From positions 827,461 through 891,460 of the forward strand of contig NZ_NNBL01000003.1 in NCBI RefSeq assembly GCF_002803065.1: 64,000 nucleotides of DNA. The letters are read 5' to 3'. The notes beneath the pieces were generated by a model that worked only from the letters and a program-made list of their open reading frames with translations, was not told the origin of the DNA and searched no databases. The position numbers were made by a program, and so were the translations under genes. Shown piece after piece: positions 8,572 through 62,598 of the stretch. Origin of the DNA: Streptomyces sp. CB01635. GTDB lineage: Bacteria; Actinomycetota; Actinomycetes; Streptomycetales; Streptomycetaceae. Numbering within the stretch: the first letter of the stretch is position 1; each line of letters starts with the position of its first letter.

Positions 8572-8630
8572 CCCCGGCGGCAGTGCGGCCCGCACGTCTG
8601 CGCCGACCCCCGCGGCCACGTGGCCCGCAC

Positions 8631-8669
8631 GACTCCAGAAGCGCCGAAGGCGTCGGCGCTTCTGGAGTC
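8631..8669 (+). terminator. Strong 17-bp hairpin terminator
   Basis: Bases 8631-8647 (starting GACTCCAGAAGC) and 8653-8669 are perfectly complementary with a five-base loop. The hairpin closes the 7372-8571 transcription unit. No T-run follows, as is usual in Streptomyces. The rest of the 306-base gap up to 8877 holds only the promoter region of the next gene, with a possible -10 TAGACT at 8866-8871 just six bases before its ATG. Confidence 0.8.
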
Positions 8670-8877
8670 TCCTGGCTCTGCGCACCCCGATCTGGATGCC
8701 ACGAGGAGGCGCGCGGCGTGATCATCGTGGCGGGCCGGGCCGGGCTCGGACGCGCGGATCACCGGGATGCAGAGAAAGCTCTCACCTTCTTCACAATTTG
8801 TTGCGACGTCCACACCCGGAGTGGCGGATGTGACAGGGCTCCGACAGCCGCCCGGAGGGGAGCCGTAGACTCGAGAC

Positions 8878-9264: not shown

Positions 9265-9273
9265 CCGAGGCGG

Positions 9274-10320: not shown

Positions 10321-10483
10321 GTAGCCGTGTCCCTTCGCCGGTCCCGTCGTGCCGCTGCGTTCTGATCAAGAACGTACGAGCGGCGAGGGCCTCGGCGGAT
10401 CCGTCCACGTATGTGTTGTGCCGTACGACTTGAGTGCTACCTGACGTCGGCCGGTCATCACATGGACGTACGGGAAGTACGGA

Positions 10484-10523
10484 AGGCCGCCCGTCTCCGA
10501 GGGGGTGGGGAGGCGGGCGGCCT
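10484..10523 (-). terminator. Hairpin downstream of FG-GAP gene
   Basis: AGGCCGCCCGTCTCC (10484-10498) pairs with GGAGGCGGGCGGCCT (10509-10523) across a ten-base loop, with one G-U pair. It lies 39 bases beyond the stop of the minus-strand FG-GAP gene, so it is placed as its terminator. The rest of 10321-10561 shows no gene. Confidence 0.7.
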
Positions 10524-10561
10524 GGCTTGGATGTTCCTTGCTGGTCCTACGCGTCGGCCGC

Positions 10562-12040
10562 CTACTCGTCGATCGCCGCGCCGAACATCGCGTCGGCGGA
10601 CGGTGCTCCGAGGGAGCCCGCGCCGTAGGTCCAAGAGCCGGAGGCCGTGACACCGCCGGAGCCCGCCGAGAACACCCAGACGACACCGTCGTTGGTGTTC
10701 TCGCCCGGCGCCGCGGCGAGCAGGCCGAAGCGACCGTCGCGGTTCGGGTCGGTGAGGCGGACCTGGCCGCCCCACTTGTCGCCCTTCTCGGGCGCGCCCG
10801 GCACGTTCGCCGAGTTCTGGTCCCAGGACTGCGCTCCGGTCGCGGTCAGGCCCGTCGCCGCCCCGCGCAGCACCCACACGGCGCCCGCGTCGGCGACCGT
10901 GCCGATGTCCTCGCCGGCCGCGCCGATCGCCACGTCGGCGTACCCGTCCCCGTTCGTGTCCGCGACGGACAGGTCCGTGCCCCAGCCGTCGCCGCGCTCG
11001 GCGGTGCCGGGCACGCCCGCGGAGTCCTGCGTCCACCACTGCACGTCGGACGACGGCCCCTCGGGCCCGCCGAGACGCACGCCCACCAGCCCGCCGGTCA
11101 TCGAAGCACCGCCGTCGTCGGGGGAGTTGGGCTCGCCGGTCACCAGGTCGTCGTATCCGTCGCGGTTGATGTCGCCCGAGGCCGCCACGGGTCCGCCGCG
11201 CAGATCGCGCTCGTAGGTGAGGCCGTCGGCGTGCCCGGACAGGTACGACGACCAGCCGTGTCCCGGCTCGGAGCCCGCCGTCACGCCCGAGACGACGAGG
11301 TCCGCGAAGCCGTTGTTGTCGTAGTCTCCCGTCGTCAGCGACATGGGCACGATGTCGCGCGCGTCGGCGAGTTTGGACAGGCGGCTCGTGGAGCGTCGCT
11401 CCAGTGGCGCCTTCGACGCAGGCTGGGGTGCGGAGTCGTAGGCGAAGAGCTCCAGGTCGTCACGGTCGAGGACGGCGATGACGTCGCCCGGCGTGTCGTT
11501 CGTGAAGTGCGCCGCCGTGACGCCCGTGCCGAACTTCTCGCCGGCGGTGGGTTCCTGGGTCTCCAGCCAGTCGCTTGCGGCGCCCGTGAGGCCGGCCTTG
11601 GAGCCCCACAGGATGGCCACTCCGCCCGCGTCCGCGGTCGTGCCGATGTCCTCGCCGGGGATGCCGACGACCGCGTCGTCGTAGCCGTCCCCGTCCAGAT
11701 CGCCCGTGGCCACCGCCTTCCCGAACGCGTCACCGGTCTCGGCGGCGCCGGCCACACCGGAGGTGGACTGGCTGAAGCGGGCGACATGAGTGGTTCCGAT
11801 GCCTCTCGACGACCCGTACTGCACGGTGACGAGGCCGGCGCCCTTCTTCCCGCTGACGGTCGCGCCGGGCGCGCCGACGAGGACGTCCTCGTAACCGTCG
11901 CCGTTGAAATCGCTGTTGCGGTCGCCTGCGTGCGTGCCTCCGGGGGTGCCGGCGTAGGCGGAGGGGGCGGTGGCGATGGCCGCACCGGACAGAAGGAGGA
12001 ATGACGCCGCGGCCAGGGCGGCGGAACGGTTCTTGCGCAC
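10562..12040 (-). CDS. Secreted FG-GAP / integrin-alpha-like repeat protein
   Basis: 492 residues. A signal peptide (MRKNRSAALAAASFLLLSGA with a cleavage region near APSAYA) is followed by at least six FG-GAP repeats. Each carries a calcium-loop sequence such as DFNGDGYEDVLVGAPG, DLDGDGYDDAVVGIPGED, DYDNNGFADLVV, DINRDGYDDLVTGEP and DTNGDGYADVAIGAAGED. These fold as blades of a beta-propeller that binds Ca2+. No enzyme domain is attached. Secreted FG-GAP proteins are abundant in Streptomyces, and their ligands are mostly unknown. It is divergent from the alpha-galactosidase gene. Confidence 0.88.
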   Translation of the reverse strand: MRKNRSAALAAASFLLLSGAAIATAPSAYAGTPGGTHAGDRNSDFNGDGYEDVLVGAPGATVSGKKGAGLVTVQYGSSRGIGTTHVARFSQSTSGVAGAAETGDAFGKAVATGDLDGDGYDDAVVGIPGEDIGTTADAGGVAILWGSKAGLTGAASDWLETQEPTAGEKFGTGVTAAHFTNDTPGDVIAVLDRDDLELFAYDSAPQPASKAPLERRSTSRLSKLADARDIVPMSLTTGDYDNNGFADLVVSGVTAGSEPGHGWSSYLSGHADGLTYERDLRGGPVAASGDINRDGYDDLVTGEPNSPDDGGASMTGGLVGVRLGGPEGPSSDVQWWTQDSAGVPGTAERGDGWGTDLSVADTNGDGYADVAIGAAGEDIGTVADAGAVWVLRGAATGLTATGAQSWDQNSANVPGAPEKGDKWGGQVRLTDPNRDGRFGLLAAAPGENTNDGVVWVFSAGSGGVTASGSWTYGAGSLGAPSADAMFGAAIDE

Positions 12041-12357
12041 GAGCGGCTCCTGATGAGAAGGACGACCGGGCAGCGCGGGGGTTGTCCGGAAAGGGCCCGT
12101 TCCTTGTCCGGCGCCCTGTTTGACAGTGCATGAGGGGGAAGGGTTGTGCAGGAGTTCGCCCGCGGTTCACCGACGTTCCGGGGGTCAACTGACAGGCGGC
12201 GAGGGCGTATTGGTGCACATGGCGCCAAACCGCCCCAGCAGTTGATTGTTTGTGCAAGAAATCGCCATACATCTTGCAGGAACGAGCTTCCCTCGGCACG
12301 GTGTCCCCGTCGCGTCATCCCCGGCGCGCTCGTAGACGCTCGTAGACGGGAGATCCC
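12041..12357. promoter_or_regulatory. 317-base divergent promoter region with inverted repeat
   Basis: This is the region between the FG-GAP and alpha-galactosidase starts. TGCAAGA (12253-12259) and TCTTGCA (12272-12278) form a 7-bp perfect inverted repeat spaced by 12 bases. It is AT-richer than its surroundings and suits an operator for the sugar-hydrolase gene. A tandem duplicate of CGCTCGTAGA (about 12328-12347) precedes the TTG start. No gene was found here. Which regulator binds is unknown; none is encoded next to it. Confidence 0.45.
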
Positions 12358-47137: not shown

Positions 47138-48361
47138 TTAGCCCAGCACCCTCCCCAGCGCGGCGAGCGCCGACTCCAGCTCTTCGCGGGTGATGGTCAG
47201 GGGCGGGGCCAGGCGGATCGTCGAACCGTGGGTGTCCTTGACCAACACGCCCTCGTCCAGGAGGAGTTCGCTGATCCGGCGGCCCGTGCCGATGGCCGGG
47301 TCGATGTCGACGCCCGCCCATAGACCGCGGGCTCGGAAGGCATTGACTCCCTTACCGGTCAGGGCTTCGAGCCCGGCGCGCAGCACCTCGCCCAGATCCG
47401 CCGCCCGGCGCTGGAATTCGCCGGTGGCGAGCAGGTCGACGACGGCGGAGCCGACCGCCGCGGACAGCGGATTCCCGCCGAACGTGGAACCGTGCTCGCC
47501 CGGCCGCAGCACCCCCAGGACGTCCCGCCCCGCGACGACCGCCGACACCGGCACGATGCCGCCGCCGAGCGCCTTGCCGAGGAGCAGCATGTCGGGGCGT
47601 ACGGCCTCGTGGTCGACGGCGAGCGTGCGGCCCGTGCGGCCGAGCCCCGACTGGATCTCGTCGGCGATGAACAGGCAGCCGGCCCGCCGCGTCAGATCGC
47701 GTACCCCGGTGAGATAGCCGTCGTCCGGGATGACCACCCCGGCCTCGCCCTGGATGGGTTCGAGCAGGACGGCCGCTGTCGTCTCGTCGACCGCCGCCTC
47801 CAGCGCGGACAGGTCGTTGTAGGGGACCACGCGGAAGCCCGGCGTGAACGGCCCGAACCCGGCGCGGGCCGACTCGTCCGTGGAGAAGCTGACGATCGTG
47901 GTCGTCCGGCCGTGGAAGTTGCCGTCCGCCACGACGATCGTCGCCCGGTCCGCGGGGACGCCCTTGACCTCGTACGCCCACTTACGGGCGACCTTGACGG
48001 CGCTCTCCACGGCCTCGGCGCCCGTGTTCATCGGCAGCACCATGTCGAGCCCGGTCAGCTCCGCGAGGCCCTCGGCGAAGCCGGCCAGACGGTCGTTGTG
48101 GAAGGCGCGCGACGTCAGTGTGAGCTGGTCGAGCTGACGGTGGGCGGCCTCGATGAGGGCGGGGTGGCGGTGGCCGAAGTTGAGGGCCGAGTAACCCGCG
48201 AGGAGGTCGAGGTAGCGGCGGCCCTCGACGTCCTCGACCCAGGTGCCCTCGGCGCGGGCGACGACGACGGGAAGGGGGTGGTAGTTGTGCGCGAGCACCG
48301 GTGTCTCGGCGCTGATGAGCTCGGCAGAGGAACGCGCGGCCTGGACGGGGGCGACGGTCAT
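47138..48361 (-). CDS. rocD: Ornithine aminotransferase
   Basis: 407 residues, class III aminotransferase. The PLP lysine is in LLLGKALGGGIVPVSAV, Asp in FIADEIQSGLGRTGR, and MNTGAEAVESAVKVARKW is the signature of ornithine-oxo-acid transaminases. It converts ornithine and 2-oxoglutarate to glutamate semialdehyde and glutamate in arginine/proline metabolism. ATG 48361 has AGGAGA upstream. It overlaps ddaH by four bases (48358-48361), so arginine-derived compounds are processed in one operon. Confidence 0.93.
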   Translation of the reverse strand: MTVAPVQAARSSAELISAETPVLAHNYHPLPVVVARAEGTWVEDVEGRRYLDLLAGYSALNFGHRHPALIEAAHRQLDQLTLTSRAFHNDRLAGFAEGLAELTGLDMVLPMNTGAEAVESAVKVARKWAYEVKGVPADRATIVVADGNFHGRTTTIVSFSTDESARAGFGPFTPGFRVVPYNDLSALEAAVDETTAAVLLEPIQGEAGVVIPDDGYLTGVRDLTRRAGCLFIADEIQSGLGRTGRTLAVDHEAVRPDMLLLGKALGGGIVPVSAVVAGRDVLGVLRPGEHGSTFGGNPLSAAVGSAVVDLLATGEFQRRAADLGEVLRAGLEALTGKGVNAFRARGLWAGVDIDPAIGTGRRISELLLDEGVLVKDTHGSTIRLAPPLTITREELESALAALGRVLG

Positions 48362-49185
48362 GAACGGATCTCCTGGGTGCAGCACTTGATGCCTCCGCCG
48401 GCCTTGTGGAACTCGGAGAGGTCGACGGGGACGGGGACGTATCCGCGGTGGGTGAGCTGTGCGATGAGCCCGGTGGCCTGCGGGGCGACGAAGACATGAC
48501 GGCCGTCGGAGACGGAGTTGAGGCCGAAGGCCATCGCGTCCTCGCGGGTGGCGAGCACGGCGCTCGGGAAGAGCCGCGCGAGCACCTCGCGGCTCCCGGC
48601 CGAGAACGCCTCCGGGTAGTACGCGATGGTGCCGCCGTCCGGATCATCTGGATCAACCGGATCGTCTGGGTGATCGAGGGCGAACAGCGCGGTGTCCAGG
48701 TGGTAAAAGTACGGATCGACCAGGCGGAGTCCGATGACCGGTACGCCGAAGAACTCCTGCGCCTCGTCGTGCGCGGCACGCGTCGTACGGAATCCGCTGC
48801 CCGCGAGAACGTAGCGGCCCGCCGGTACGAGGTCGCCCTCGCCCTCGCAGACCGACTCCGGGCGGTGGACGTCGTAGCCCGCCGCCTTGAACCACGTCTC
48901 GTACTCCGCGGACTCGGGGCGGCGTTGCTCCGCATGGAAGTGGGAGCCGAGAACACGGCCGGCCACGACGAGCGCCGAGTTCGCGGCGAACACCATGTCG
49001 GGCAGGCCCGGGACGGGCGGCACGGTTTCCACGGTGTGTCCGTGCGCGCGGTAGGTCTCGATGAGGTTCTGCCATTGCGCGATGGCGAGCGCGGTGTCGA
49101 CCCGCACGTCGTCACGCATCCACGGGTTGATGGCGTACTGAACGTCGAAGTATCGAGGCTCGCACACCAGATAGCGCCTGGGCAC
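48358..49185 (-). CDS. ddaH: Dimethylargininase / amidinotransferase-fold hydrolase
   Basis: 275 residues from GTG 49185 with GGAGG nine bases upstream; a longer TTG start at 49215 is weaker. PRRYLVCEPRYFDVQYAINP is the beginning of DDAH/arginine-deiminase-like proteins; the His is in YFYHLDTALFALD, and the catalytic Cys is in GGGIKCCTQEIRS. The reaction would be hydrolysis of (methyl)arginine to citrulline or ornithine-like products. With rocD downstream it fits arginine-derived nitrogen catabolism. Confidence 0.88.
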   Translation of the reverse strand: MPRRYLVCEPRYFDVQYAINPWMRDDVRVDTALAIAQWQNLIETYRAHGHTVETVPPVPGLPDMVFAANSALVVAGRVLGSHFHAEQRRPESAEYETWFKAAGYDVHRPESVCEGEGDLVPAGRYVLAGSGFRTTRAAHDEAQEFFGVPVIGLRLVDPYFYHLDTALFALDHPDDPVDPDDPDGGTIAYYPEAFSAGSREVLARLFPSAVLATREDAMAFGLNSVSDGRHVFVAPQATGLIAQLTHRGYVPVPVDLSEFHKAGGGIKCCTQEIRS

Positions 49186-49284
49186 AGACGGGTACCTCCG
49201 CTTCCGGCGGGACAACGATCAGAGGGTGTCTCCACGGTAGGAAGCGGAAGTCGCGCTCGACAAGAGCATTTGGATGCGTGTGCC

Positions 49285-49299
49285 CGCAGTAATGCTGCG
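49285..49299. promoter_or_regulatory. Palindrome upstream of ddaH-rocD, possible Lrp site
   Basis: CGCAG-TAATG-CTGCG (49285-49299) is a perfect 5-bp-arm dyad with an AT-rich centre, as in Lrp/AsnC boxes. It lies 100 bases upstream of ddaH and just downstream of the Lrp gene. Assigned by position only. Confidence 0.4.
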
Positions 49300-49311
49300 C
49301 AGATATGGAGG

Positions 49312-49815
49312 TCAGCGCTGGTTTGCTGCGTCGTCCGGGGCGGGCTCGCGGGCGCCGGCCTCCGCGCTGTCCGGCAGCAGATGGGAAAGAACCATGTAGC
49401 TGATCGTCTTGCGGATGAACGGCTCGGCCCTGATGCGTTCGAGCACCTCTTCGAAATGGCCGACGTCCGTGGCCCTGACGTGCAGCAATGCGTCGGCGCC
49501 GCCCGTCACGGTCATCGCGGAGGTGATCTCCGGGTGGTTGCGCACGACTTCGGCGAGCCGACGAGGCGGCGCCGCGCCGTCGCAGTACACCTCGACGAAC
49601 GCCTCGGTGCTCCAGCCGAGCGCAGTCGGCCGGACCGTGGCGGTGTAGCCGGTGATGACGTCGTTCTCCCGCAGCCGGTCGGCGCGCCGCTTCACCGCGG
49701 TGGCGGACAGACCGATGGCCGCGCCGATCTCCGCGAAACTCGTCCTGGCGTTGGCGATCAGGGCGGCGACGATCTTGCGGTCGAGGTCGTCGAACGCGAC
49801 GTGCTTGCTGTTCAT
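49312..49815 (-). CDS. Lrp/AsnC family transcriptional regulator
   Basis: 167 residues, normal Lrp size. [20 protein letters not shown] and [20 protein letters not shown] form the HTH; the RAM domain holds [20 protein letters not shown]. It lies just upstream of ddaH-rocD on the same strand, and its start overlaps the PucR stop by four bases. It probably responds to an amino acid and regulates ddaH-rocD. Confidence 0.9.
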
Positions 49816-51011
49816 GGCCGGTGGTCCTTCTCGTGCTGGTCACGGGCGCGCAGGGCGAGGGCCACCAGGGCGGCGTCCTCGGGGCGCCGCACATCGCGGC
49901 CGGTCAGCTCGGCGAACCGGTTGATCCGCTGCTGGATCGTGTTGCGATGGCAGTACAGGGCGGCCGCGGTGTCCGCGACGGACCCGGTCCCGGCCAGGTG
50001 CGACCGTACGGTATCGAGGAGGCGTTTCGTCTCGCCGACGGGCACCGCTTCCGCGTCGAGCCCGCTGAGGACGTCGTCGGCGAGATCCCGCCCGAAGCCT
50101 TCCGCGCGCTGCACCAGGACATCGAGCCAGCTGTCCTCGAGCCGCCGTGGACCCGCGGCGTCCACCGGCAGCACGCGCGCCGTGGCCGTCGCGAGCACCA
50201 CGGCACGCGGCACCGCGGCAAGGCCCGCCGGGGCGGAAGCGACCCCGCACGGCGTCTCCTGAAGCAGCGCGAGCACGGTCTCCGCCGTGGTGCGCCGTCC
50301 CAGCTGCACGGCGAGGACCAGATCCGACGCGACCTCCTGCAACTGGACGGGTGTCTCCGCGGTGCGCAGCGCCGTCGCGGCCCTGCGCAGCCCCGCCCCG
50401 TGCTGCGGCGGCGCCACCGCGCACAGGAAGCGGTCGTCGGGCTGGAAGCCGAGAGCGAGCGCCGCGTCCCGTACCACCGTCGGATTGCGGCCCTCGCTGT
50501 CCAGGAGCCGGGCGAACCACATGCGCCGCTCGTCGGCCGCGCGGCGTCCCATGTCCAGGATGGTGCGCTGATACGCGGTCATGATCCCGGTGACATGCTT
50601 CTCCACGGCTTCCCACACGTGGTACGCGGACGTCACCAGCTCGGCCTTGTCCTTCTCGCCAGCCTTGTCGACCAGAGCCGCCCAGACCACGCGGAAGTCG
50701 AGGCGGGCCGCCGCGAGCAGGGAGTCCAGGGGGACGCCCTGCCGGGCGCGCCTCTCCCCGATCTCTTCGGAGACCGTGGCGATGCGCTCGGGCAGGGGCA
50801 GACAGGCGACCTTGCGCAGCAGGTACTCGAACGCCTGCCAGGCCGTGGCGCGGAAGTCCTCCTCCGAGACACGGTCCGCGTAGGAGGCACGGACAGGGCG
50901 TACGCACTCCACCCAGAGGCCGACGAGGCTGTCGATGTCCTCGAGGCAGCCCCGGGCCAGCTCGGTGACCCGGGGATCCGGGGGCGGGAAGAGGATGGGC
51001 TCACTGTTCAT
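49812..51011 (-). CDS. PucR family transcriptional regulator
   Basis: 399 residues from ATG 51011. A helical N-terminal domain precedes the C-terminal PucR/CdaR-type [23 protein letters not shown] followed by [20 protein letters not shown]. PucR proteins govern purine, allantoin and related nitrogen catabolism in Gram-positives. It is divergent from the urease-like operon and overlaps the Lrp gene. It is the prime candidate for regulating the ureAB-to-aldehyde-dehydrogenase operon. Confidence 0.88.
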
Positions 51012-51134
51012 GTGCACAATCCTGGCCGCCCCATCGGCGCCATATCAACGTTGGCTTCGCGCCAGACCCCGTGAATTCTTGGAGTGTCCGGCAGGCCGTG
51101 GCCGGAATTCCACTGCATGGAGGGCCGGGTAGCT

Positions 51135-51728
51135 GTGCATTTGACCCCTCGCGAGCTGGAGCGGATCCAGCTGTTCACCGTCGCTGAACTGGCGCGCCGC
51201 CGCAGGACGCGCGGGCGCCGGCTGAACGCGCCGGAGGCGATCGCCCTGATCTGCGACGAGGTTCTCGAAGCCGCCTGGGACGGCCTGAGCCTCGACGAAG
51301 TGATCGCGGCGGGCCGCAAGGTCCTCACCGAGGACGACGTCATGGACGGGGTGCCGCAGATGGTCACCACGATCCAGGTCGAGGCCCTGTTCCCGAGTGG
51401 TACGTCCTTGGTGGCGATCGACCACCCGATCCCCACCACGGGCGGAAGCGGCGAATCCGGGCCGGGAGCCGTCCGCACCGCACCAGACCCGGTCCTGATC
51501 AACACCGGCAGGCTCCGCTCGCGGCTGACCATCCGAAACAACGGCGACCGCACCGTCTACCTGTCCTCGCACTACCCGCTCGCCGAAGCGAACGCGGCCC
51601 TGGAGCTCGACCGCGAGGCCGCCGCGGGCATGCGGCTCGACATCCCGGCGGGCACCGCCCTGTCCTTCGAACCCGGCGCCGTACGCGAAGTCGACGTGGT
51701 GACGGCACGCCATGAGGAGGCGTCATGA
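51135..51728 (+). CDS. ureAB: Fused urease gamma-beta subunit (UreAB)
   Basis: 197 residues from GTG 51135 (HLTPRELERI, the canonical UreA start), with GGAGGG upstream. UreA part: LNAPEAIALICDEVLEAAWD, VMDGVPQMVTTIQVEALFPSG. UreB part: LTIRNNGDRTVYLSSHY, MRLDIPAGTALSFEPGAV. Fusions of gamma and beta occur in some bacteria. HYPL replaces the usual HYHF. Stop overlaps the next start by four bases (ATGA), so UreAB and UreC-like are made together. Confidence 0.9.
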   Translation: MHLTPRELERIQLFTVAELARRRRTRGRRLNAPEAIALICDEVLEAAWDGLSLDEVIAAGRKVLTEDDVMDGVPQMVTTIQVEALFPSGTSLVAIDHPIPTTGGSGESGPGAVRTAPDPVLINTGRLRSRLTIRNNGDRTVYLSSHYPLAEANAALELDREAAAGMRLDIPAGTALSFEPGAVREVDVVTARHEEAS

Positions 51729-53410
51729 CACAGGTCGACCGCCGCACGTACAACGCTCTCTACGGGCCCACGACCGGCGACCGGATCCGGCTCGGCGACA
51801 CGTGCTTGTGGGTCGAGGTGGAACAGGACGACGGCACACCGGGCGACGAACTGCTCGGCGGCTGCGGCAAGACGGTGCGCGACGGACTGCTCGCATCGCC
51901 GCGCTCCGAGCGGGACTCCGCGCTCGACATGGTGGTCGCGGGGGTGGTCCTGATGGACCCGGTGCTGGGCGTCCGCAAGACCGACATCGGCATCAAGGAC
52001 GGCCGGATCGTCGCCGTCGGCGGTGTCGGCAACCCGGATGTCATGGACGTCGACTTCGCCATCGACTCCCACACCTCGGTCATCCCGGGCGAGGGCCTGA
52101 TCGCCACCCCGGGCATCGTGGACAGCCACGTCCACCTCTCCTCGCCCGAGGTGGCACCCGCCGCGCTGTCCGCGGGAGTCACCACGCTCGTCGGCATGGG
52201 CCTCGGCGGCGTCTGGGAGATCGGCTGCAACCCGGCGCACAACCTGCACACCCTGATGGCGTCCTGGCGCGGCACCCCGCTCAACATCGCGTTCCTCGCC
52301 CGGGGTTCCTCCACCTCGCGCGCCCTGCTCGACGAGTCCGTACTCGCGGGCGCCGGCGGCTTCAAGATCCATGAGGACTTCGGGGCCACCCCGCGCATCA
52401 TCGAGACGTGCCTGGGCACCGCGGAACAGGCGGACCTGCCCGTCGCCATGCACACCGACTCCATGAACGAGTCCGGCTATCTGCGCGACACCATCGGCGC
52501 CACCCGCGGCCGCACCGTGCACGCCTACCATGTCGAGGGCGGCGGCGGTCACCCCGACCTCCTGGAGATCCTCTCCGAGCCCAACGTGCTTCCCTCGTCG
52601 ACCACCCCGACGGTTCCGTACACCGCCAACACCGTCGGCGAGCTCTTCCCGATGACGATGACGGTCCACCGGCAGAACCACCACTCGCCCAGCGACATCG
52701 AGATCTCCAAGGGCCGCATCCGCGGCCATGCCATCGCCGCCGAGAACGCCCTGCACGACCTGGGTGCGATCAGCATCGTCAACTCCGACTCCATGGGCAT
52801 GGGCCGGATGGCCGAGACCGTGCGCAGGACCTGGCAGCTCGCCCATGTCCAGGCCCTCGCGAACGGCGCCGGGGGAGTGGAACACGCCGCCAACGCACGA
52901 GCGTTGCGCTATCTGGCGAAGATCACCCTGAACCCGGCGATCGCGCACGGCCTGGCCCACGAGGTCGGCTCCCTCCAGCCGGGCCGCATGGCCGACCTCG
53001 TCCTGTGGCACCCCGCCTGGTTCGGTACCAAGCCCGAACTCGTCGTCAAGGGCGGCTTCGTGGCCTGGGGCAACACCGGATCGGGCTCCGGCTCCACCCG
53101 CCTGACCCAGCCCCGCACCTACCGCCCCTACTTCGGGGCACTCGGCGACGCCCCCGCACGCCTGTCCCGGATCTTCGTCGCGCAGGCCGCCCTGGAGGAC
53201 CGGGCCGCCCGCGCCGCGCTCCCGCAGGGTCTGCAGTACGCGCCGATCGTCGGCGCACGGGGCCTGACCCGGGCCGACATGCTGCACAACACCGCCACGC
53301 CACGCGTCCACGTGCCGCGCGAGCCCGCTCCCGTCCTGGTCGACGACGTCCCCACCGGAACCGACGCCGTCACCGAACTGCCCCTCGCCCAACTGCACCA
53401 CTTCGCCTGA
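51725..53410 (+). CDS. ureC: Urease alpha subunit-like amidohydrolase, divergent
   Basis: 561 residues, UreC length and order. Metal-site residues: His135/His137 (DSHVHLSS), Lys214 for carbamylation and His216 (GGFKIHEDFGATP), His243 (MHTDSMNES), His269 (YHVEGGGGH), Asp355 (NSDSMGMGR). The flap is MTMTVHRQ: the cysteine (KAU C319) is Val314, with His315 kept. The "AGTHATTCTPG" pocket loop is replaced by LGGVWEIGCNPAH. No ureD/E/F/G are present nearby. It may be a urease with accessory proteins encoded elsewhere, or a nickel/other-metal amidohydrolase with another substrate. Confidence 0.88.
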   Translation: MTQVDRRTYNALYGPTTGDRIRLGDTCLWVEVEQDDGTPGDELLGGCGKTVRDGLLASPRSERDSALDMVVAGVVLMDPVLGVRKTDIGIKDGRIVAVGGVGNPDVMDVDFAIDSHTSVIPGEGLIATPGIVDSHVHLSSPEVAPAALSAGVTTLVGMGLGGVWEIGCNPAHNLHTLMASWRGTPLNIAFLARGSSTSRALLDESVLAGAGGFKIHEDFGATPRIIETCLGTAEQADLPVAMHTDSMNESGYLRDTIGATRGRTVHAYHVEGGGGHPDLLEILSEPNVLPSSTTPTVPYTANTVGELFPMTMTVHRQNHHSPSDIEISKGRIRGHAIAAENALHDLGAISIVNSDSMGMGRMAETVRRTWQLAHVQALANGAGGVEHAANARALRYLAKITLNPAIAHGLAHEVGSLQPGRMADLVLWHPAWFGTKPELVVKGGFVAWGNTGSGSGSTRLTQPRTYRPYFGALGDAPARLSRIFVAQAALEDRAARAALPQGLQYAPIVGARGLTRADMLHNTATPRVHVPREPAPVLVDDVPTGTDAVTELPLAQLHHFA

Positions 53411-53426
53411 GGGACGGACCCACCCC

Positions 53427-55082
53427 ATGCTTCTCGATCTGCTGGTGCGCAACGCGCGCATCCTCACCCTCGACGACGACCGGCCCTCCGCCCGCACCCT
53501 GGGCGTCCTGCACGGCAGGATCGCGGGACTCGACGAGGACGTCGAAGCCCTGCCCGCGCGGCGTGTCCTCGACGCGGGCGGCGCCACCCTCGTCCCCGGC
53601 TTCAACGACGCCCACTGCCACACCGCGTGGTTCGGCCTCACCCTCGCCCAGCTCGACCTGTCCAAGGCCCGGTCGGTGGACGAGGTGTACGCCGCCGTCG
53701 CCGACCACGCGGAAGGCCGGCCGCGGGACGCGTGGGTGATCGGCGCCGGGCTCGACCACCACAAGCTCGGCGGCGTCCAGCCGCACCGCGACGCACTCGA
53801 CCGCGCCGCGGGCGGCCGCCCGGTGTGGCTCAAGCACACCTCCGGACACGCCTGCATCGTCAACTCGCCTGTCCTGGAGAAGGCCGGAGCGCTGGCCGAC
53901 GGGTTCGCCGACCCCACCGGCGGCGTCGTCGCCCGAGACGCGGACGGGCGGCCCAACGGACTTCTCGAAGAGACCGCGCAGCAGCTCGTGCAACGCCAGG
54001 TGCTGCCGTATCCCATGGCCACCCTCGCCGACGCCATCGGCGCCGCCACCCGGCACTACCTCGCCGAGGGCATCACCAGCTTCACCGAAGCGGGCATCGG
54101 CGGCGGCTGGATCGGGCACAGCCCGGTGGAGCTCGCCGCCTATCAACTCAGCTGTGACAGTGGCCGGTTGCACACCCGGGCCCAGGTGATGGCCGCCTCC
54201 GACGTGCTGCACCCGCTCACCGCTCACGCCGACGACGCCATCACCCTCGGCCTCGACCTCGGCATGCGCACGGGCTTCGGCGACGACCGGCTCTCGCTGG
54301 GACCCGTAAAGATCTTCCTCGACGGCTCGCTCCTCGGCCGCACCGCCGCCGTCACCGAACCGTTCTGCGGCTGCCCCCACGACACGTCCGCCACCGGATA
54401 CTTCCAGGGCGACCCCGAGGCGATGGCCGACACCGTGGTGGCCGCGCACCGGGCCGGCTGGACCGTCGCTGCCCACGCCATCGGCGACCGGGCCGTCGAC
54501 CTCGCACTCGACACCTTCGCCCGCGCCCAACGGGTCCACCCACGCCCCGAGGTGCGCCACCGGATCGAGCACGCCGGAGTCGTACGCCCCGACCAGCTCG
54601 CCCGCTTCGCCGAGCTGCGCGCCGTGCCCGTGCCGCAGCACAACTTCCTGTACGCCTTCGGAGACGCCATGGCGGCAGCGCTCGGGCCGCAGCGCACCCC
54701 GTGGTCGTACCGGCTGCGTTCCCTGCTCGACCTGGGCATTGTCGTGCCCGGCAGCTCAGACCGGCCGGTCGCTCCCGGCGCCCCGCTGCCCGCGATGCAG
54801 TCGATGGTGGAGCGCCTCACCGAGACCGGCGCGCCCTTTGGCGCGGACGAGAGCGTCACGGCACTCGCCGCGCTGCGTGCCTGGACCGTCGGCTCCGCGC
54901 ACGCCACGGGCTACGGCGACCGCAAGGGCGTCCTGCGCCCCGGTCACCTGGCCGACTTCACCGTCCTGGACGCCGACCCCACCCGCATCTCGCCGGACCG
55001 TATCGGCGCGATCCGGATCCTGGCCACCTCTGTCGGCGGCACCGTCGCCCACGACCCGCTCGGCCTGACCGCCTTCGCCTGA
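53427..55082 (+). CDS. YtcJ-like metal-dependent amidohydrolase (second copy)
   Basis: 551 residues, same family and length as the protein at 27851-29506. Metal motif LVPGFNDAHCHTAWFG, then AHAIGDRAVDLALDTF, RHRIEHAGVVRPDQ and late Asp in GSSDRPVAPGAPLPAM. It starts 16 bases after the ureC-like stop and is followed by an MHS transporter. Family members hydrolyse formamides, ureido or cyclic amide compounds. In this operon it probably acts on the imported substrate, or on a metabolite of it. Confidence 0.9.
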   Translation: MLLDLLVRNARILTLDDDRPSARTLGVLHGRIAGLDEDVEALPARRVLDAGGATLVPGFNDAHCHTAWFGLTLAQLDLSKARSVDEVYAAVADHAEGRPRDAWVIGAGLDHHKLGGVQPHRDALDRAAGGRPVWLKHTSGHACIVNSPVLEKAGALADGFADPTGGVVARDADGRPNGLLEETAQQLVQRQVLPYPMATLADAIGAATRHYLAEGITSFTEAGIGGGWIGHSPVELAAYQLSCDSGRLHTRAQVMAASDVLHPLTAHADDAITLGLDLGMRTGFGDDRLSLGPVKIFLDGSLLGRTAAVTEPFCGCPHDTSATGYFQGDPEAMADTVVAAHRAGWTVAAHAIGDRAVDLALDTFARAQRVHPRPEVRHRIEHAGVVRPDQLARFAELRAVPVPQHNFLYAFGDAMAAALGPQRTPWSYRLRSLLDLGIVVPGSSDRPVAPGAPLPAMQSMVERLTETGAPFGADESVTALAALRAWTVGSAHATGYGDRKGVLRPGHLADFTVLDADPTRISPDRIGAIRILATSVGGTVAHDPLGLTAFA

Positions 55083-55159: not shown

Positions 55160-56521
55160 GTGAGCTCCAACAGCACGACGCCGCCAACAGGCCGCACCGT
55201 CGCCGGCACCGCCGACATCAAGCGCCTCCTGTCCGCCGCGTTCATCGGCACCGCCCTCGAGTGGTACGACTACTTCCTCTACGGCACCGCGGCCGCGCTC
55301 GTCTTCAACAAGCTGTTCTTCCCCTCGCTCGACGCCACGACGGCGACCATCGCCTCCTTCGTGACCTTCGCCGTCGGCTTCGCGGCCCGGCCCATCGGCG
55401 CCGCTGTCTTCGGCCACATCGGCGACCGCTACGGACGCAAGGCCGCGCTGATCATCACGGTCGTCATGATGGGTGTCGCCACCGGCTGCATCGGCCTCCT
55501 CCCGTCGTACGACACCATCGGCATCTGGGCCCCCGTGCTGCTCGCCGTACTCCGCTTCGTGCAGGGCATCTCGGTCGGCGGGGAGTGGAGCGGCGCGATG
55601 CTCCTGACCCTGGAACACACGCCGAAGGAGAAGCACGGCAGCTACTCGGCGGTTCCCCAACTCGGCTCACCCGTGGGCACGTTGCTCTCCAGCGGCGCCT
55701 TCGCCCTGGTCGGCCTGCTGCCCGACGACGCCTTCTACGCGTGGGGCTGGCGCATCCCCTTCCTCGCCGCCTTCGGCCTGCTCGTCTTCGCGCTCTACCT
55801 GCGCCTGCGCATCGAGGAGTCCCCGGTCTTCCGCGCCATGATCGAGGACGCCGAGAAGAGCGGCCCCGCGCCCGCCCCCCTCATCGAAGCCTTCCGCAAG
55901 ACCTGGGGCCGCATGATCATCAGCGTCCTCGCGGCCTTCCTCGGCATCGGCGGCTTCTTCCTGCTGACCACCTTCATGATCTCGTACGGCACCGAACAGC
56001 TCGGCATCGCGAAGTCCGTGATGCTGAATGCCACGCTCCTTGCCGCCGTGGCCGAGATGGTCGTGATCTACATCGGCGGCCGGATCGCGGACCGCGTCGG
56101 CCCGTGGAAGGTGTGCGCCGTCGGCGGCGTGCTGTCCGTCCTGGTCGCCTTCCCGGTCTTCTGGCTCGTCGACACGGGGCAGACCGCCCTCGTCATCCTC
56201 GGTGTGACGCTCGGCGTCGCCGTCATCTCCATCCCTTACGCCACCATCGGCGCCGTCGTCACGGGCCTGTTCCCGGAGACCTTCCGCTACAGCGCCGTCG
56301 CCATGTCGTACAACCTCTCGGGTGTCCTCGGCGGGTTCGTCCCGCTGCTCGCCGCCTGGCTGACCGGCGTCACCGACGGCGCGTCCTGGGGCGTCGCCCT
56401 CCTCCTCGTCCTCATCGCCGCCTGCACCGCGGCCGGCTCCTTCCTGGCAGGCCCGCTGCTCGGCAGCCGGTCCACCACCACGCCCGAGAACACCTCCGCA
56501 CCTCAGAAGGCCACCGCATGA
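55160..56521 (+). CDS. MHS-type MFS transporter (second copy)
   Basis: 453 residues from GTG 55160 with GGAGA five bases upstream. GTALEWYDYFLYGTAAALVF, FGHIGDRYGRKAALIITVVM and FVQGISVGGEWSGAMLLTLE are MHS signatures, strongly similar to the transporter at 29554. It imports a small organic acid or zwitterion with protons. Its stop overlaps the ThDP-enzyme start (ATGA), so transport is coupled to the downstream pathway. Cytoplasmic-membrane protein with 12 segments. Confidence 0.92.
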   Translation: MSSNSTTPPTGRTVAGTADIKRLLSAAFIGTALEWYDYFLYGTAAALVFNKLFFPSLDATTATIASFVTFAVGFAARPIGAAVFGHIGDRYGRKAALIITVVMMGVATGCIGLLPSYDTIGIWAPVLLAVLRFVQGISVGGEWSGAMLLTLEHTPKEKHGSYSAVPQLGSPVGTLLSSGAFALVGLLPDDAFYAWGWRIPFLAAFGLLVFALYLRLRIEESPVFRAMIEDAEKSGPAPAPLIEAFRKTWGRMIISVLAAFLGIGGFFLLTTFMISYGTEQLGIAKSVMLNATLLAAVAEMVVIYIGGRIADRVGPWKVCAVGGVLSVLVAFPVFWLVDTGQTALVILGVTLGVAVISIPYATIGAVVTGLFPETFRYSAVAMSYNLSGVLGGFVPLLAAWLTGVTDGASWGVALLLVLIAACTAAGSFLAGPLLGSRSTTTPENTSAPQKATA

Positions 56522-58191
56522 CCCAGCACCACCCCGCCCGTCCCGGCGGCCAGGTCCTCATCGACCAGCTGTCCGCACACGGCGTCGAGGCCGTCTACGG
56601 CGTGCCCGGCGAGAGCTACCTCGCCGCGCTCGACGCCCTGCACGACGCCCCCGTCCACATGGTCGTCTGCCGCCACGAAGGCGGCGCCGCCTACATGGCC
56701 GAGGCCCACGGCAAACTCACCGGGCGCCCCGGAGTCTGCTTCACGACCCGGGGCCCCGGGGCCACCAACGCGCTGGTCGCTCTGCACACCGCGCACCAGG
56801 ACGCCACGCCGATGGTCCTGTTCATCGGCCTGGTGCCGCGCGGGCACACGGACCGCGCCTCCTTCCAGGAACTCGACCTGCGCGGCACGTTCGGCGCGAG
56901 CGCCAAGCTCGTCGAGACCATCGACGACGCCGTGCGCATCCCCGAGTACGTCGCCCGCGCGTTCGCCGTCGCGAGCAGCGGCCGGCCGGGACCCGTGGTC
57001 CTGGGTCTGCCGGAGGACATGCTCACGGACGTCGTACGGGTCGCCGACGCAACCCCGCTGCCCGTACCCGGCGGCGGCGTGACCCCGGCCGAACTCACTT
57101 CCCTGGAAAGGCTGTTGACGTCTGCCGAACGCCCCCTGCTCTTCCTCGGCGGCGGCCGCTGGACCCCGGACGCCCGCGCCGCCGTACGGGACTGGGCCGA
57201 GGCGTGGTCCCTGCCCGTGACGGTGGACTTCCGCTGCCAGGACCTCATCGACAACGAGTCCGAGGTGTACGTCGGCCCGCTCGGCTACGGACGCGACGAC
57301 GCGCTCGCGCAGCGGGTGCGCGAGGCCGACCTTCTGCTGGCACTCGGGACCGCACCGGGTGACGTCGCGACCGACGGGTTCACGCTGCTTCCCATCGACG
57401 GAACCGGACCCCGGCTCGTCCAGGTGCTGCCCGAAGCGCAGCCGCCGGGCGCCCTGTACCCCGCCGAACTCACCCTGCTCGCCGCCCCCGAGGCATTCGC
57501 GGACGCGGTACGCACCCTGCGCCCCGGCAACCCCCTGCCGTGGGCCGTGCGGACCAAGCAGGACAGGGCCGCCCATCTGGCGTTCCGCACCCCGGTCCCC
57601 GAGGAGGACCCGCTCGACCTCGCCACCGTCTTCGCCACCCTCGACGACCGGCTGCCCGCGGACGCCGTCATCACCTTCGGCGCCGGCAACCACGCCATCT
57701 GGGCGCAGCGCTTCCTCACCTACCACGACGGCACACGCCAACTCGCCCCCCGCAACGGGTCCATGGGATACGGCATACCCGCCGCCGTGGCCGCCGCGAT
57801 CCACGATCCGGACCGCCGGGTCGTCTCCGTCGCGGGCGACGGCTGCTTCCTGATGAACGGTCAGGAACTGGCCACCGCCGTGGCCGAGGGCGCCAAGCCG
57901 CTGATCATCGTGCTGAACAACGCCAAGTACGGCACCATCCGCCAGCACCAGGAGCAGGCCTACCCGGGGCGGGTCAGCGGCACAGGACTCGGCAACCCCG
58001 ACTTCGCCGCGTACGCCCGCGCCTTCGGCGCCCACGGCGAAACCGTCACTGTCACAGGCGAGTTCGGGCCCGCGCTCCAGCGGTCCCTCGACAGCGGCAA
58101 GGCCGCCCTCATCGAGCTGAAGGTGACCGACGGGCGCCTGGGCCCCGGTGTCACTGTCGCCTCCCTGCGCAAGGAGAGCTGCCATGTCTGA
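56518..58191 (+). CDS. Thiamine-diphosphate enzyme (acetolactate synthase / 2-oxoacid decarboxylase type)
   Basis: 557 residues with the three ThDP-enzyme domains. Catalytic Glu54 (VVCRHEGGAAYMAEA), GRPGPVVLGLPED, and the ThDP/Mg motif starting GDGCFLMNGQELATAV and ending in LNNAKYG. No FAD-binding acetolactate-synthase regulatory features are clear. In this context a 2-oxo acid decarboxylase giving an aldehyde for the next gene product (as AruI does with 2-ketoarginine) is more natural than branched-chain biosynthesis. Overlaps both neighbours, so co-translated. Confidence 0.85.
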   Translation: MTQHHPARPGGQVLIDQLSAHGVEAVYGVPGESYLAALDALHDAPVHMVVCRHEGGAAYMAEAHGKLTGRPGVCFTTRGPGATNALVALHTAHQDATPMVLFIGLVPRGHTDRASFQELDLRGTFGASAKLVETIDDAVRIPEYVARAFAVASSGRPGPVVLGLPEDMLTDVVRVADATPLPVPGGGVTPAELTSLERLLTSAERPLLFLGGGRWTPDARAAVRDWAEAWSLPVTVDFRCQDLIDNESEVYVGPLGYGRDDALAQRVREADLLLALGTAPGDVATDGFTLLPIDGTGPRLVQVLPEAQPPGALYPAELTLLAAPEAFADAVRTLRPGNPLPWAVRTKQDRAAHLAFRTPVPEEDPLDLATVFATLDDRLPADAVITFGAGNHAIWAQRFLTYHDGTRQLAPRNGSMGYGIPAAVAAAIHDPDRRVVSVAGDGCFLMNGQELATAVAEGAKPLIIVLNNAKYGTIRQHQEQAYPGRVSGTGLGNPDFAAYARAFGAHGETVTVTGEFGPALQRSLDSGKAALIELKVTDGRLGPGVTVASLRKESCHV

Positions 58192-59611
58192 TCTGACCCT
58201 GCACAACATCGTCGACGGCCGCAGTACCGAGGTCGCGGACCGCATGGAGCTGACCGACCCCGCAACGGGTGAGGTCTACGGCACCGCGCCCCGCTCGTCC
58301 GCCGCGCACGTGGACGCGGCCGTGGCCGCCGCGCGCCGGGCCCTGCCCGCCTGGCGCCGCAGCACCCCGGCCCAGCGGCAGGAGGCACTCCTGCGCCTCG
58401 CCGACCTCGTGACCGCCCACGCGGACGAGCTGGTCGACGCGGAAGTGCGCAGCACCGGCAAGCCGCGCGAGACGACCCGCACCCTCGAAGTCGGCCGCGG
58501 CGCCGACCAGTTGCGCTTCTTCGCGGGCGCCGCCCGTGTCCTGGAGGGCGTTGCCGCGGGCGAGTATGCGCAGGGCCACACCTCGTACGTCCGCCGCGAG
58601 GCCGTGGGGGTCGTCGCCCAGGTCACGCCCTGGAACTATCCGCTGATGATGGCCGTGTGGAAGCTCGGCCCCGCGCTCGCCGCGGGCAACACGGTGGTCC
58701 TCAAGCCGTCCGACACCACGCCCTGGTCGACCGTCCTGCTCGGCGAACTCGCCGCGCGCGTCTTCCCGCCGGGCGTCGTCAACATCGTGTGCGGCGACCG
58801 GGACACCGGACGCGCGCTCGTCGCCCATCCGGACGTGGACATGGTGGCCATCACCGGCAGCACCCGGGCCGGCTCCGAGGTCATGGCCGAGGCCTCCCGC
58901 GAGGTCAAGAACGTCCACCTGGAGCTGGGCGGCAAGGCTCCGGCCGTCGTCTTCGCCGACGTCGACCCCGTCCGCACGGCCCGCGCCCTCGCCGACGCCG
59001 CCTTCTTCAACGGCGGCCAGGACTGCACTGCCGTGACCCGGATCCTGGTCCAACGCACGCTCTACGAAGCCCTGTTGACGGCCCTCGTCGATGCCGCCCG
59101 CGACACCCGGACAGGCTCACCGGACGAGGACGTCTTCTACGGTCCTCTCAACAGCGCCGCCCACGCCGCCCGCGTCGAGTCCGTCATCGCGACGCTCCCG
59201 GAGCACGCCCATGTAGAGACTGGGGGCCGGCGCGTCGACCGGCCCGGCTACTTCTTCCCGCCCACCGTCATCTCCGGTGTCCGCCAGGACGACGACGTGG
59301 TGCAGGGCGAGATCTTCGGCCCCGTCGTCACCGTCCAGCCCTTCGACACCGAGGAAGAGGCCGTCGCCCTGGCCAACGGCGTCGACCTCGGCCTGGCGTC
59401 CAGCGTATGGACCGCCGATCTGGGCCGCGCCATGCGGCTGAGCGCCGAACTCGACTTCGGCTGCGTCTGGCTCAACTGCCACCAGGTGGTCCTCGCCGAG
59501 ATGCCCCACGGCGGATACAAGCAGTCGGGCATCGGCAGCGACCTGAGCCGCTACGGCTTCGACGACTACACGCGGATCAAGCACGTCATGGCCGCGCACG
59601 TCACGCCCTGA
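58184..59611 (+). CDS. Aldehyde dehydrogenase, aminobutyraldehyde-type
   Basis: 475 residues. Asn151 (TPWNYPLMMAVW), Glu247 (HLELGGKAP) and Cys281 (GGQDCTAVTRIL) are the catalytic set. NCHQVVLAEMPHGGYKQSG and YGFDDYTRIKHVM resemble gamma-aminobutyraldehyde / guanidinobutyraldehyde dehydrogenases. It would oxidise the aldehyde from the upstream ThDP enzyme to an acid with NAD(P)+. Starts eight bases inside the end of that gene. Last gene of the operon. Confidence 0.9.
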   Translation: MSDLTLHNIVDGRSTEVADRMELTDPATGEVYGTAPRSSAAHVDAAVAAARRALPAWRRSTPAQRQEALLRLADLVTAHADELVDAEVRSTGKPRETTRTLEVGRGADQLRFFAGAARVLEGVAAGEYAQGHTSYVRREAVGVVAQVTPWNYPLMMAVWKLGPALAAGNTVVLKPSDTTPWSTVLLGELAARVFPPGVVNIVCGDRDTGRALVAHPDVDMVAITGSTRAGSEVMAEASREVKNVHLELGGKAPAVVFADVDPVRTARALADAAFFNGGQDCTAVTRILVQRTLYEALLTALVDAARDTRTGSPDEDVFYGPLNSAAHAARVESVIATLPEHAHVETGGRRVDRPGYFFPPTVISGVRQDDDVVQGEIFGPVVTVQPFDTEEEAVALANGVDLGLASSVWTADLGRAMRLSAELDFGCVWLNCHQVVLAEMPHGGYKQSGIGSDLSRYGFDDYTRIKHVMAAHVTP

Positions 59612-60210: not shown

Positions 60211-61414
60211 GCCGCGTTCCTTGATCCTTCTCGGTGGCGACGGCGGAGGCGGAGAGGAGCGTCGCAGCGGCCAGGCTGCCCCAGAGGGCGGCCGAGCCGC
60301 GGGAGGCGAGAGTGGTGATGGCCGCCGGGGAGACGGCGAGGCCGAAGCCCGTGGAGAGCTGGAAGCGGGCGAGGGCACGTCCCAGGACATGTGCCGGGGC
60401 GAGGACGGTGACGAGCGCCGTGGCGCTGCCGGCATAGATGATCTCGCCGATGGTGCAGACCACGGAGACCGTGGCGACGGCCGGGGCACCCCAGCCGTGC
60501 CCCAGTGAGGTGGCCACCAGGAAGCCGAGGTAGGACGCGGCGAGTACCACGCCGGCGAGAGCCAGCACGGTCCGCCGGGAGAAGCGGGACATCAGGACGG
60601 TGACCGGGACCTGCAGGGTGACCACCAGCACCGTGTTGGCCACGAAGATGGCTGCCGACCACACCGAGGAGGCGTGCAACTGTGACCACAGGACCAGAGG
60701 GAGCGCGATTTCGGGGACGTTGAGGCAGAAGGCGTAGATCACGTTGGCGGCCAGCAGCGCGCGCATCCGGGGCGCGGGCCCGTCGTCCCTGTCCTTGGCC
60801 GGAGCAGCGGCCGGATGAGCGCGCACGTGGACCGACCACGCCAAGGCTGCCGCGGTGAGGTAGGCGAGCCCGGTGACGGCTGCCAGCGTCTGCAATGCGG
60901 TGGTGCCGCCCGTCAGGCATGCGGCGGCGAGGAGCGCGCCCGCACCCAGGCCGGCGTTGCGCAGGGCGCGGCCGGCCGCGAGAGCGGTGTCGCGTTCGCG
61001 GCCGTGGACGACCGTGGCCACGAGAGCTGCGTGGGCGGCCGGCCATGCCTGGTTGCCGATGCCGAGGAAGAGCGCCGCCGTCGCGAACAGCCGGACGTGC
61101 CCCGCCGGGGTGGCCAGCAGCAGCGCCACGCCCAGCACCCGCACCAGCATCGACGCTGCCACGACCGTGCTGCGTGCGCCCCGGTCCAGCCAACGGCCGA
61201 CCGCGGGCATGCACACCAGGCCCACGACGACGCCGCCCGTCATGGCGATGCCGGTGGCGGGCGGGGACAGCCTCAGCACGTTCACCCCGTAGAGCAGCAG
61301 GAAGGGCCGCAGCAAGCCGGTGCCGAGCGCGTCCACGGCCAGAGCGACGGCATAGCGGGGGCCTCCGGAGGCACGGACGAGGGCGCGCGGCTGGATCTTG
61401 GTGGTGGTTGCCAT
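60143..61414 (-). CDS. MFS transporter with C-terminus reading into integrase remnant
   Basis: 423 residues, 12 hydrophobic segments: [59 protein letters not shown] drug-efflux-like MFS. The last 23 codons (60143-60210) run antisense through the integrase remnant and look foreign ([19 protein letters not shown]); the natural end was probably near 60211-60225. It is divergent from the DUF5937-ArsR gene, with a perfect 17-bp dyad between. Confidence 0.85.
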
Positions 61415-61443
61415 GGCGTCAACGGTGCGTTCGGCCGCCGGGC

Positions 61444-61484
61444 CGACCGCGTCGGTTGACGAACACCGTCAACCGACGCGGTCG
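61444..61484. promoter_or_regulatory. Perfect 17-bp inverted repeat, operator of MFS/ArsR pair
   Basis: CGACCGCGTCGGTTGAC (61444-61460) and GTCAACCGACGCGGTCG (61468-61484), spacer GAACACC. The core GTTGAC-N7-GTCAAC has the size and symmetry of an ArsR-type operator. It lies between the divergent MFS exporter and its presumed regulator. Confidence 0.8.
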
Positions 61485-61512
61485 TCGGCTGTCGACCACC
61501 GAGAATGAGGGG

Positions 61513-62598
61513 ATGACGTTGAGGATCGACATCGGCGGCCTGCCGTCCGGACGACTGCGGTTCGCTGCCTCCCCGCTGGCCGAGCTGACCGCGATGCTGC
61601 ACGTGCTGGCCGAACCCGGTCATCACCCGCAACTCGCCGGCTGGGCCGGGGACGTCTGGGCCGGGCTGCGGCCGGAGCTGGCCGAGCGGCTCAGGGAAGC
61701 GGAGTTCCTCTGGCGTTCCTCACGAGCAGACTTCCTGGTCCCCGCCCGTCCCCGGCCGACCCTCGCCGAGGAGTTGGACGATGTGGACCGGATCGACGAC
61801 GAAACCTATGTGACCGCCGCGCTCGTCACCACGTGCGGCAGCAACCGGGTCCACTTCGCCGCGCCGTCACCGCTCGCCGACGCGACGGCGCGCGAGCGGG
61901 CCCTGGACCTCGCCCAGGCCCGCGGCGCGCTCCAAGAGGCCTTCGCGGAACGGCTGCTCGCGGACCCCGCAGCCGTGCGGGCACGGGTGCGCGACACCCT
62001 CGAACAGTGCGCCGAGGCCTTCTTCGACGCCGCCTGGATGGGCGTCGCCGTGCAACTCGCCACCGACCTGCGCCTGAAGAACGACCTGATGAGGCGCCAG
62101 GGCATCGGGGCGGCACTCGCGTCGATCTCCAGCGCCGTCACCCTGGCACCGGACGGCAACTGCATCATCGTGGACAAGCTGCAGGACAATGCGACCGCCG
62201 CCCACGGCACCGGGGTCACTTTCCTCCCCAGCGTCTTCGGCCGCCCGCACCTGGTGGCGGTCCACGCGCCCGGTTGGCATCCGGTGGTGCAGTACCCCGT
62301 CGCCGAGCCGAGTCCCTCGGTGCCGGTATCGCTGGAAACGGTCACGCTACGCCTGGAGGCGCTCGCGCATCCGGTACGGCTGCGGCTGCTGCGCACTCTG
62401 GCCCGCGGCCCGCACACCACCGGTGAGCTGGCCCACGCCTGGGAGCTTTCGCCCCCGGAAGTCTCCCGCCACCTCGCTGTCCTGCGCCGCGCGGGCCTGC
62501 TCACGGCCCGGCGGCAGGGCCGTTACGTCCGTTACACCGTCAATCTGCCCGATCTGACGGCGCTGGGGGCCGACCTGCTGGCGGCCGTACTGCGCTGA
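61513..62598 (+). CDS. DUF5937 / ArsR-type winged-helix regulator
   Basis: 361 residues from ATG 61513. Residues 1-275 are the DUF5937 effector domain (ASPLAELTAMLHVLAEPGHH), then the C-terminal HTH: LEALAHPVRLRLLRTLARGP, TGELAHAWELSPPEVSRHLA and the wing ARRQGRYVRYTVNLP. Typical of Streptomyces repressors that control a divergent MFS exporter. The ligand is probably a small molecule expelled by the exporter. The adjacent 17-bp dyad is its likely operator. Confidence 0.85.
   Translation: MTLRIDIGGLPSGRLRFAASPLAELTAMLHVLAEPGHHPQLAGWAGDVWAGLRPELAERLREAEFLWRSSRADFLVPARPRPTLAEELDDVDRIDDETYVTAALVTTCGSNRVHFAAPSPLADATARERALDLAQARGALQEAFAERLLADPAAVRARVRDTLEQCAEAFFDAAWMGVAVQLATDLRLKNDLMRRQGIGAALASISSAVTLAPDGNCIIVDKLQDNATAAHGTGVTFLPSVFGRPHLVAVHAPGWHPVVQYPVAEPSPSVPVSLETVTLRLEALAHPVRLRLLRTLARGPHTTGELAHAWELSPPEVSRHLAVLRRAGLLTARRQGRYVRYTVNLPDLTALGADLLAAVLR

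Follow-up and report, generated by a model that had tools for sequence, protein, structure and literature searches.

The window analysed here is a stretch of 64,000 nucleotides from Streptomyces sp. CB01635, and it carries a pair of urease-like genes next to a divergent regulator and a set of putative catabolic genes. In the list below, locus counts refer to the 41 loci that hold a close relative of this pair (window type); several of the contigs end early.

47138..49815, minus strand: ornithine aminotransferase, dimethylargininase (DDAH) and Lrp-type regulator, from family matches; neighbours outside the conserved module
49812..51017, minus strand: divergent PucR-type regulator (HTH_30, the PucR C-terminal HTH, 69.9 bits; 32 of 41 loci)
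51135..51728, plus strand: fused UreA(gamma)-UreB(beta)-like subunit (Pfam Urease_gamma 126.6 bits and Urease_beta 95.2 bits, both over cut-off)
51725..53410, plus strand: UreC-like catalytic subunit of 561 aa (Pfam Urease_alpha and Amidohydro_1)
52664..52666, plus strand: codon of Val314, which takes the place of the flap cysteine (aligned with the genome's own canonical UreC and 40 relatives)
53427..55082, plus strand: YtcJ-like Amidohydro_3 hydrolase, third gene of the module (Pfam 312 bits; within 7 kb of UreC in 33 of 41 loci)
55160..56521, plus strand: MHS-family metabolite:H+ symporter (TIGR00883 386 bits, cut-off 443; within 7 kb in 35 of 41 loci; start taken from homologue L043)
56518..58191, plus strand: ThDP-dependent enzyme of the NF006052 (PRK08199) subfamily (719.7 bits, cut-off 539; 21 of 41 loci)
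58184..59611, plus strand: aldehyde dehydrogenase of the aminobutyraldehyde dehydrogenase subfamily NF010000 (643.8 bits, cut-off 615; 9 of 41 loci within 7 kb; start taken from homologue L043)

Near the window end, a DUF5937 protein with an ArsR-type HTH regulator occupies 60895-62598. The UreAB open reading frame runs from 51084 to 51728, and the GTG at 51135, which reads VHLTPRE, is a start shared with the homologues. The UreAB stop and the UreC start overlap at 51725-51728. Against the model of the bifunctional subunit, UreAB scored 232.4 bits, under the cut-off of 243 bits, and the conserved C-terminal tail of UreB is missing from it and from the aligned window-type homologues (five window-type rows). 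The window UreC is 45-46% identical to true UreC over its full length. Its AlphaFold2 model (mean pLDDT 81, pTM 0.88) superposes on solved ureases with TM-scores of 0.87-0.91, and these two results together rule out a chance match.

The metal site of the window UreC is complete. The His-His-Lys-His-His-Asp ligands align at H135, H137, K214, H243, H269 and D355, where K214 is the equivalent of the lysine that is carbamylated in urease, and they are invariant across all aligned relatives. With the Pfam matches, this bears out the sequence-only reading, which had described a fused UreAB and a UreC-like protein with a carbamylated-type lysine and metal histidines. The catalytic-type residues H216, H315 and R331/R333 are also retained in the alignment. 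That reading was equally right that the flap cysteine is replaced by Val314: the flap reads MTMTVHR (V314-H315-R316) where the genome's canonical copy has MLMVCHH, so that the cysteine is gone and the histidine retained. V314 and R316 are present in all window-type rows, with T-V-H-R throughout. The pocket loop, GLGGVWEIGCN----PAHNL, differs as had been claimed, with four residues fewer than its counterpart in the genome's canonical UreC. The alignment, not the model, is the source of the flap and loop details, because residues 161-164 of the loop were modelled at pLDDT below 50.

Neither feature is decisive by itself. Accessory-bearing proteobacterial ureases have the same four-residue deletion, and the deletion alone therefore does not imply a new substrate. 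The flap cysteine is dispensable in Klebsiella urease. Structures of C319A/S/Y urease variants are among the structural matches of the window model, and the UreC on a plasmid of Aminobacter sp. SR38 (L114, 7295-12374) has Ser at the flap position yet retains ureG, ureD and ureF. The absence of the cysteine was thus correctly noted, but it is weaker evidence than had been implied. Loss of the cysteine was also considered as proof of accessory loss and was rejected, as the tree holds only two independent joint losses (p 0.5), too few for such a test, and the SR38 enzyme is a counterexample.

The genome of the source strain (G000, 10.06 Mb) contains four full UreC genes. An ordinary urease operon on contig C15 holds the only UreD, UreF and UreG over cut-off, each as a single copy. 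The remaining three belong to UreAB-C pairs that lack accessory genes, namely the window pair, one on C59 and one on C45, and the UreC of the latter two are 44-45% identical to that of the window. Each of these two pairs (L010 on C59, 8505-11963; L011 on C45, about 8600-12180) is directly followed by an agmatine deiminase relative; a further such relative lies near the C45 pair (L011, 2609-3769), and its N-terminal signal looks to be of the Tat type. The genome search proposed with the sequence-only reading thus yielded one complete ureDFG set with its ordinary urease and two additional accessory-free pairs. With such a set in the cell, the window pair could be a paralogue of ordinary nickel urease that the C15 operon matures in trans, and published surveys do count Streptomyces ure(AB)C clusters among urease genes (PMC5489568, PMC3293853). 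UreD, UreF and UreG were found in none of the 41 window-type loci, as had been reported for the neighbourhood of the window pair. Maturation in trans is nevertheless improbable as a general explanation. We searched for accessory genes in 46 genome handles, representing about 42 distinct genomes, all with the window-type clade. All three genes were absent from 12 of these (G113, G212, G262, G265, G012, G311, G312, G318, G321, G323, G328, G331), five of which reach 99% completeness or more; G311 and G328, as metagenome assemblies, carry lower weight, and G312 has a sub-threshold UreF fragment containing a stop. In three of the 12 (G113, G212, G262), the window-type gene is the sole UreC found at E<=1e-100. 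Several genomes with the agmatine deiminase-linked type (AguA type) also have no UreD over cut-off (G012, G073, G094, G096, G044).

The gene is under constraint in the genomes without accessory genes: dN/dS of UreC between them is 0.10-0.21 (five pairs), which indicates purifying selection, and the ligands are intact. Maturation by genes located elsewhere, which had been left as an option, is therefore excluded for those 12 genomes, so that it fails for the clade while remaining available in the source strain. Judged from the genomes, the window-type enzyme is kept and constrained where the known route of nickel-urease maturation is impossible. The same dN/dS values, the ligands that are invariant in all relatives and the conserved operon make a non-catalytic or decaying urease copy very improbable, as far as sequence can tell.

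A maximum-likelihood tree of 47 UreC, the phylogeny that had been proposed as a check, placed the window UreC in a separate actinobacterial group. The window type, the AguA type, a type located in nonribosomal peptide synthetase (NRPS) clusters and one unlinked actinobacterial copy form this group, which has 100/100 support and a branch of 0.52 and is distinct from both canonical UreC and the proteobacterial ureEF(AB)CGD type. The urease equivalog model TIGR01792 (cut-off 680 bits) separates them in the same way. The window UreC scored 570 bits, the window type as a whole 531-576, the AguA type 638-649 and the NRPS type 598, all under the cut-off, whereas the canonical copy (873) and the accessory-bearing relatives (range 812-873) passed. 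Failure in this model is a further point against a paralogue matured in trans. A second, independent accessory-free pair was seen in alphaproteobacterial metagenome assemblies (L090, 8023-9732; L091, 9298-11710), with a Thr-Val/Ile-His-His flap; the L091 protein passes the equivalog model at 763 bits, and an MttB-family methyltransferase lies near its gene.

In a scan of 84,980 species genomes, the window-type clade comprised 41 loci (64-99% identity), all in Actinobacteria, including Streptomyces, Streptosporangiaceae, Pseudonocardia, Actinomycetospora and others. It is rare in Streptomycetaceae (about ten of 298 genomes). The module, seen across 7-10 genera, consists of the divergent PucR-type regulator, UreAB (41 of 41), UreC, the YtcJ-like amidohydrolase and the MHS transporter, often with the ThDP enzyme and the aldehyde dehydrogenase. 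Three candidate partners were rejected. DDAH, considered together with ornithine aminotransferase, adjoins the pair in one of the 41 loci, the near-identical L043 (99% identity). Glyoxylate carboligase is not the identity of the ThDP gene, which falls in NF006052, TIGR01504 not being among the 25 families listed. PotABCD is not a conserved neighbour, as the ATPase cluster of 11 loci is a mixture of unrelated ABC ATPases and a Pot-like set occurs only in L064. A dehydrogenase related to that of the window lies upstream in L050 and L064, the latter being the locus that also has the Pot-like ABC transporter. In Pseudonocardia (L061, 52-4616, and upstream of the L072 locus), genes for LamB/YcsF, biotin carboxylase, biotin carrier and molybdenum hydroxylase adjoin the module.

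Over its length, the YtcJ-like protein shares 52% identity with an amidohydrolase encoded on p2MP, a plasmid of Arthrobacter sp. 68b; a flavin reductase and a flavin monooxygenase flank this amidohydrolase. In the pyridine pathway on p2MP, such an amidohydrolase reportedly splits an N-formyl enamide and releases formamide. By analogy, the window enzyme might hydrolyse a small amide such as formamide, or urea, freed by the YtcJ-like hydrolase from a ring-opened N-heterocycle. In Streptosporangium and Nonomuraea (L058, 306-6760; L059, 1-2961; L069, 3901-6896), the module adjoins a cluster of xanthine dehydrogenase, urate oxidase, HIU hydrolase and OHCU decarboxylase, and this placement of Streptosporangiaceae modules beside urate degradation would suit such a role. 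However, the module has no conserved ring-opening enzyme, the p2MP stretch has no urease-like pair and the purine neighbourhood is confined to one family, and we consider this explanation rather unlikely. The YtcJ/p2MP, aldehyde dehydrogenase, Pot-like and urate clues agree on nitrogen-rich ureido or amide compounds as a class, not on one molecule.

The main rival is a true urease that loads another metal. The iron urease UreA2B2 is not known to have accessory genes of its own, and the window pair, a fused UreAB with a UreC, likewise has none. In Helicobacter mustelae and in Hardy H. pylori, UreA2B2 is a second UreAB-C pair beside the nickel urease, and it demonstrates that the urease scaffold can work without nickel (PMC11541087). 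The window pair could likewise be a urease that takes up iron, for example, without accessory proteins. Its full ligand and catalytic set, its position as a second UreAB-C pair alongside a nickel urease, as for the iron urease (PMC11541087), and the presence of 3qga among its structural matches (TM 0.90) are all consistent with this. On the other hand, its operon differs from that of UreA2B2, a neighbourhood of YtcJ-like hydrolase, MHS symporter and ThDP enzyme is not a urea-use cassette, and the loci read showed no urea transporter. The flap and pocket loop are unlike those of canonical nickel urease, the pocket may differ from that of UreA2B2 as well, and the clade stands on a long separate branch within Actinobacteria. 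We therefore regard an iron-type urease as unlikely, though less so than the other alternatives.

The sister clades suggest substituted ureas as the class of substrate. The AguA-type UreC was found in 65 of 101 Streptomycetaceae sampled, and in all 30 AguA-type loci examined an agmatine deiminase relative lies 11-200 bp downstream on the same strand. These relatives score 307-349 bits, below the AguA equivalog cut-off of 382. The product of agmatine deiminase is N-carbamoylputrescine, a monosubstituted urea, and the linked pair is thus well placed to replace AguB, the next enzyme. No AguB over the curated cut-off was found in the 101 genomes; nearly all have AguB-like nitrilases under the cut-off (best 268 of 410 bits), which could perform the step instead. 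AguB would share with the sister clade the proposed reaction, R-NH-CO-NH2 to amine, NH3 and CO2, but is a nitrilase-superfamily protein unrelated to urease. A UreAB-C pair with a TVHR flap was also observed in NRPS clusters of Kitasatospora, Streptomyces anulatus and Embleya (L103; L104, 7264-9644; L106, 7276-9662), adjoining phosphotransferases and two proteins without a Pfam match. The flap histidine is followed by Arg in the window and NRPS types, by His or Asn in canonical UreC, and by Asp (26 of 30) or Gly (4 of 30) in the AguA-type copies. These differences may reflect selection for the charge of the substrate. The predominant Asp of the AguA-linked clade suits the amine end of N-carbamoylputrescine, and the constant Arg316 beside the flap histidine of the window type could bind a carboxylate. 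On this basis an omega-ureido acid, 4-ureidobutyrate-like, is our guess for the window clade, held with low confidence.

Taken together, we consider it about an even chance that the window pair encodes a binuclear metallohydrolase derived from urease, belonging to an actinobacterial clade that needs no UreD, UreF or UreG for maturation, and that it most likely cuts a terminal carbamoyl or amide group rather than urea. The reaction would be R-NH-CO-NH2 to R-NH2, NH3 and CO2 on a larger compound. We infer that the substrate is not urea and that the metal is not delivered by the nickel-urease system. As for the order of steps, the MHS symporter would import the compound, UreABC and the YtcJ-like hydrolase would make the hydrolytic cuts, and the ThDP enzyme and aldehyde dehydrogenase would then decarboxylate and oxidise the product, with the PucR-type regulator controlling this small catabolic operon. 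All of this evidence agrees with the earlier suggestion of an amidohydrolase for some other amide or ureido compound, a suggestion strengthened by the agmatine deiminase-linked sister clade, although the substrate itself is only inferred. Against a non-urea substrate, the enzyme has every catalytic residue of urease but the flap cysteine, so that urea hydrolysis is chemically possible. In addition, the genome context names no substrate, and the ThDP and aldehyde dehydrogenase genes are present in only part of the loci.

Compared with known systems, the window type shares with nickel UreABC of Klebsiella aerogenes and Sporosarcina pasteurii the fold, the six ligands including the lysine, the equivalents of H216 and H315 and the post-flap arginines. 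It departs from them in its flap Val followed by His-Arg, its shorter loop, its lack of the UreB tail, its lack of UreDEFG in cis and its failure in the equivalog model. The proteobacterial ureases with the gene order ureEF(AB)CGD (PMC2492869) resemble it in the fused UreAB and the loop deletion but have the flap cysteine and ureEFGD and pass that model. The S. coelicolor ure(AB)C genes SCO5525-5526 are likewise an accessory-free pair (PMC2492869, PMC3293853), and SCO5527 has been named as an AguA-pathway homologue (PMC3293853). This pair is likely to be the reference for the AguA-linked sister clade, which is ~45% identical to the window UreC and has AguA downstream instead of the YtcJ/MHS module. 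It has been listed among urease or urea-utilising genes (PMC2492869, PMC3293853, PMC5489568); among the papers searched, we found none that tests it or ties it to agmatine, nor any that links urease-like pairs to agmatine deiminase or NRPS clusters. In its sequence features, the window type follows the plan of urease but departs from what that name implies in its flap, its equivalog score and its lack of accessory genes. Look-alikes of this kind are carried by many soil actinobacteria; although the annotation is urease throughout, they are probably another enzyme.

The usual view of urease is that of a nickel enzyme strictly limited to one substrate, and the presence of ureAB-C genes is taken as evidence that urea is used. 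Should these pairs prove to be other hydrolases, numerous annotations and counts of ureolysis would be in error, the missing agmatine step of Streptomyces would be filled, and the pairs would provide a natural set for studying how a urease site is loaded without UreDFG and what the flap does. More tentatively, and with the odds slightly against it, Actinobacteria may have repurposed the urease scaffold into ureido hydrolases that need no nickel accessory proteins, acting on N-carbamoylputrescine beside agmatine deiminase, on a ureido acid in the PucR module and on a peptide intermediate in the NRPS clusters. If true, this would be the first branch of the urease fold with physiological substrates besides urea.
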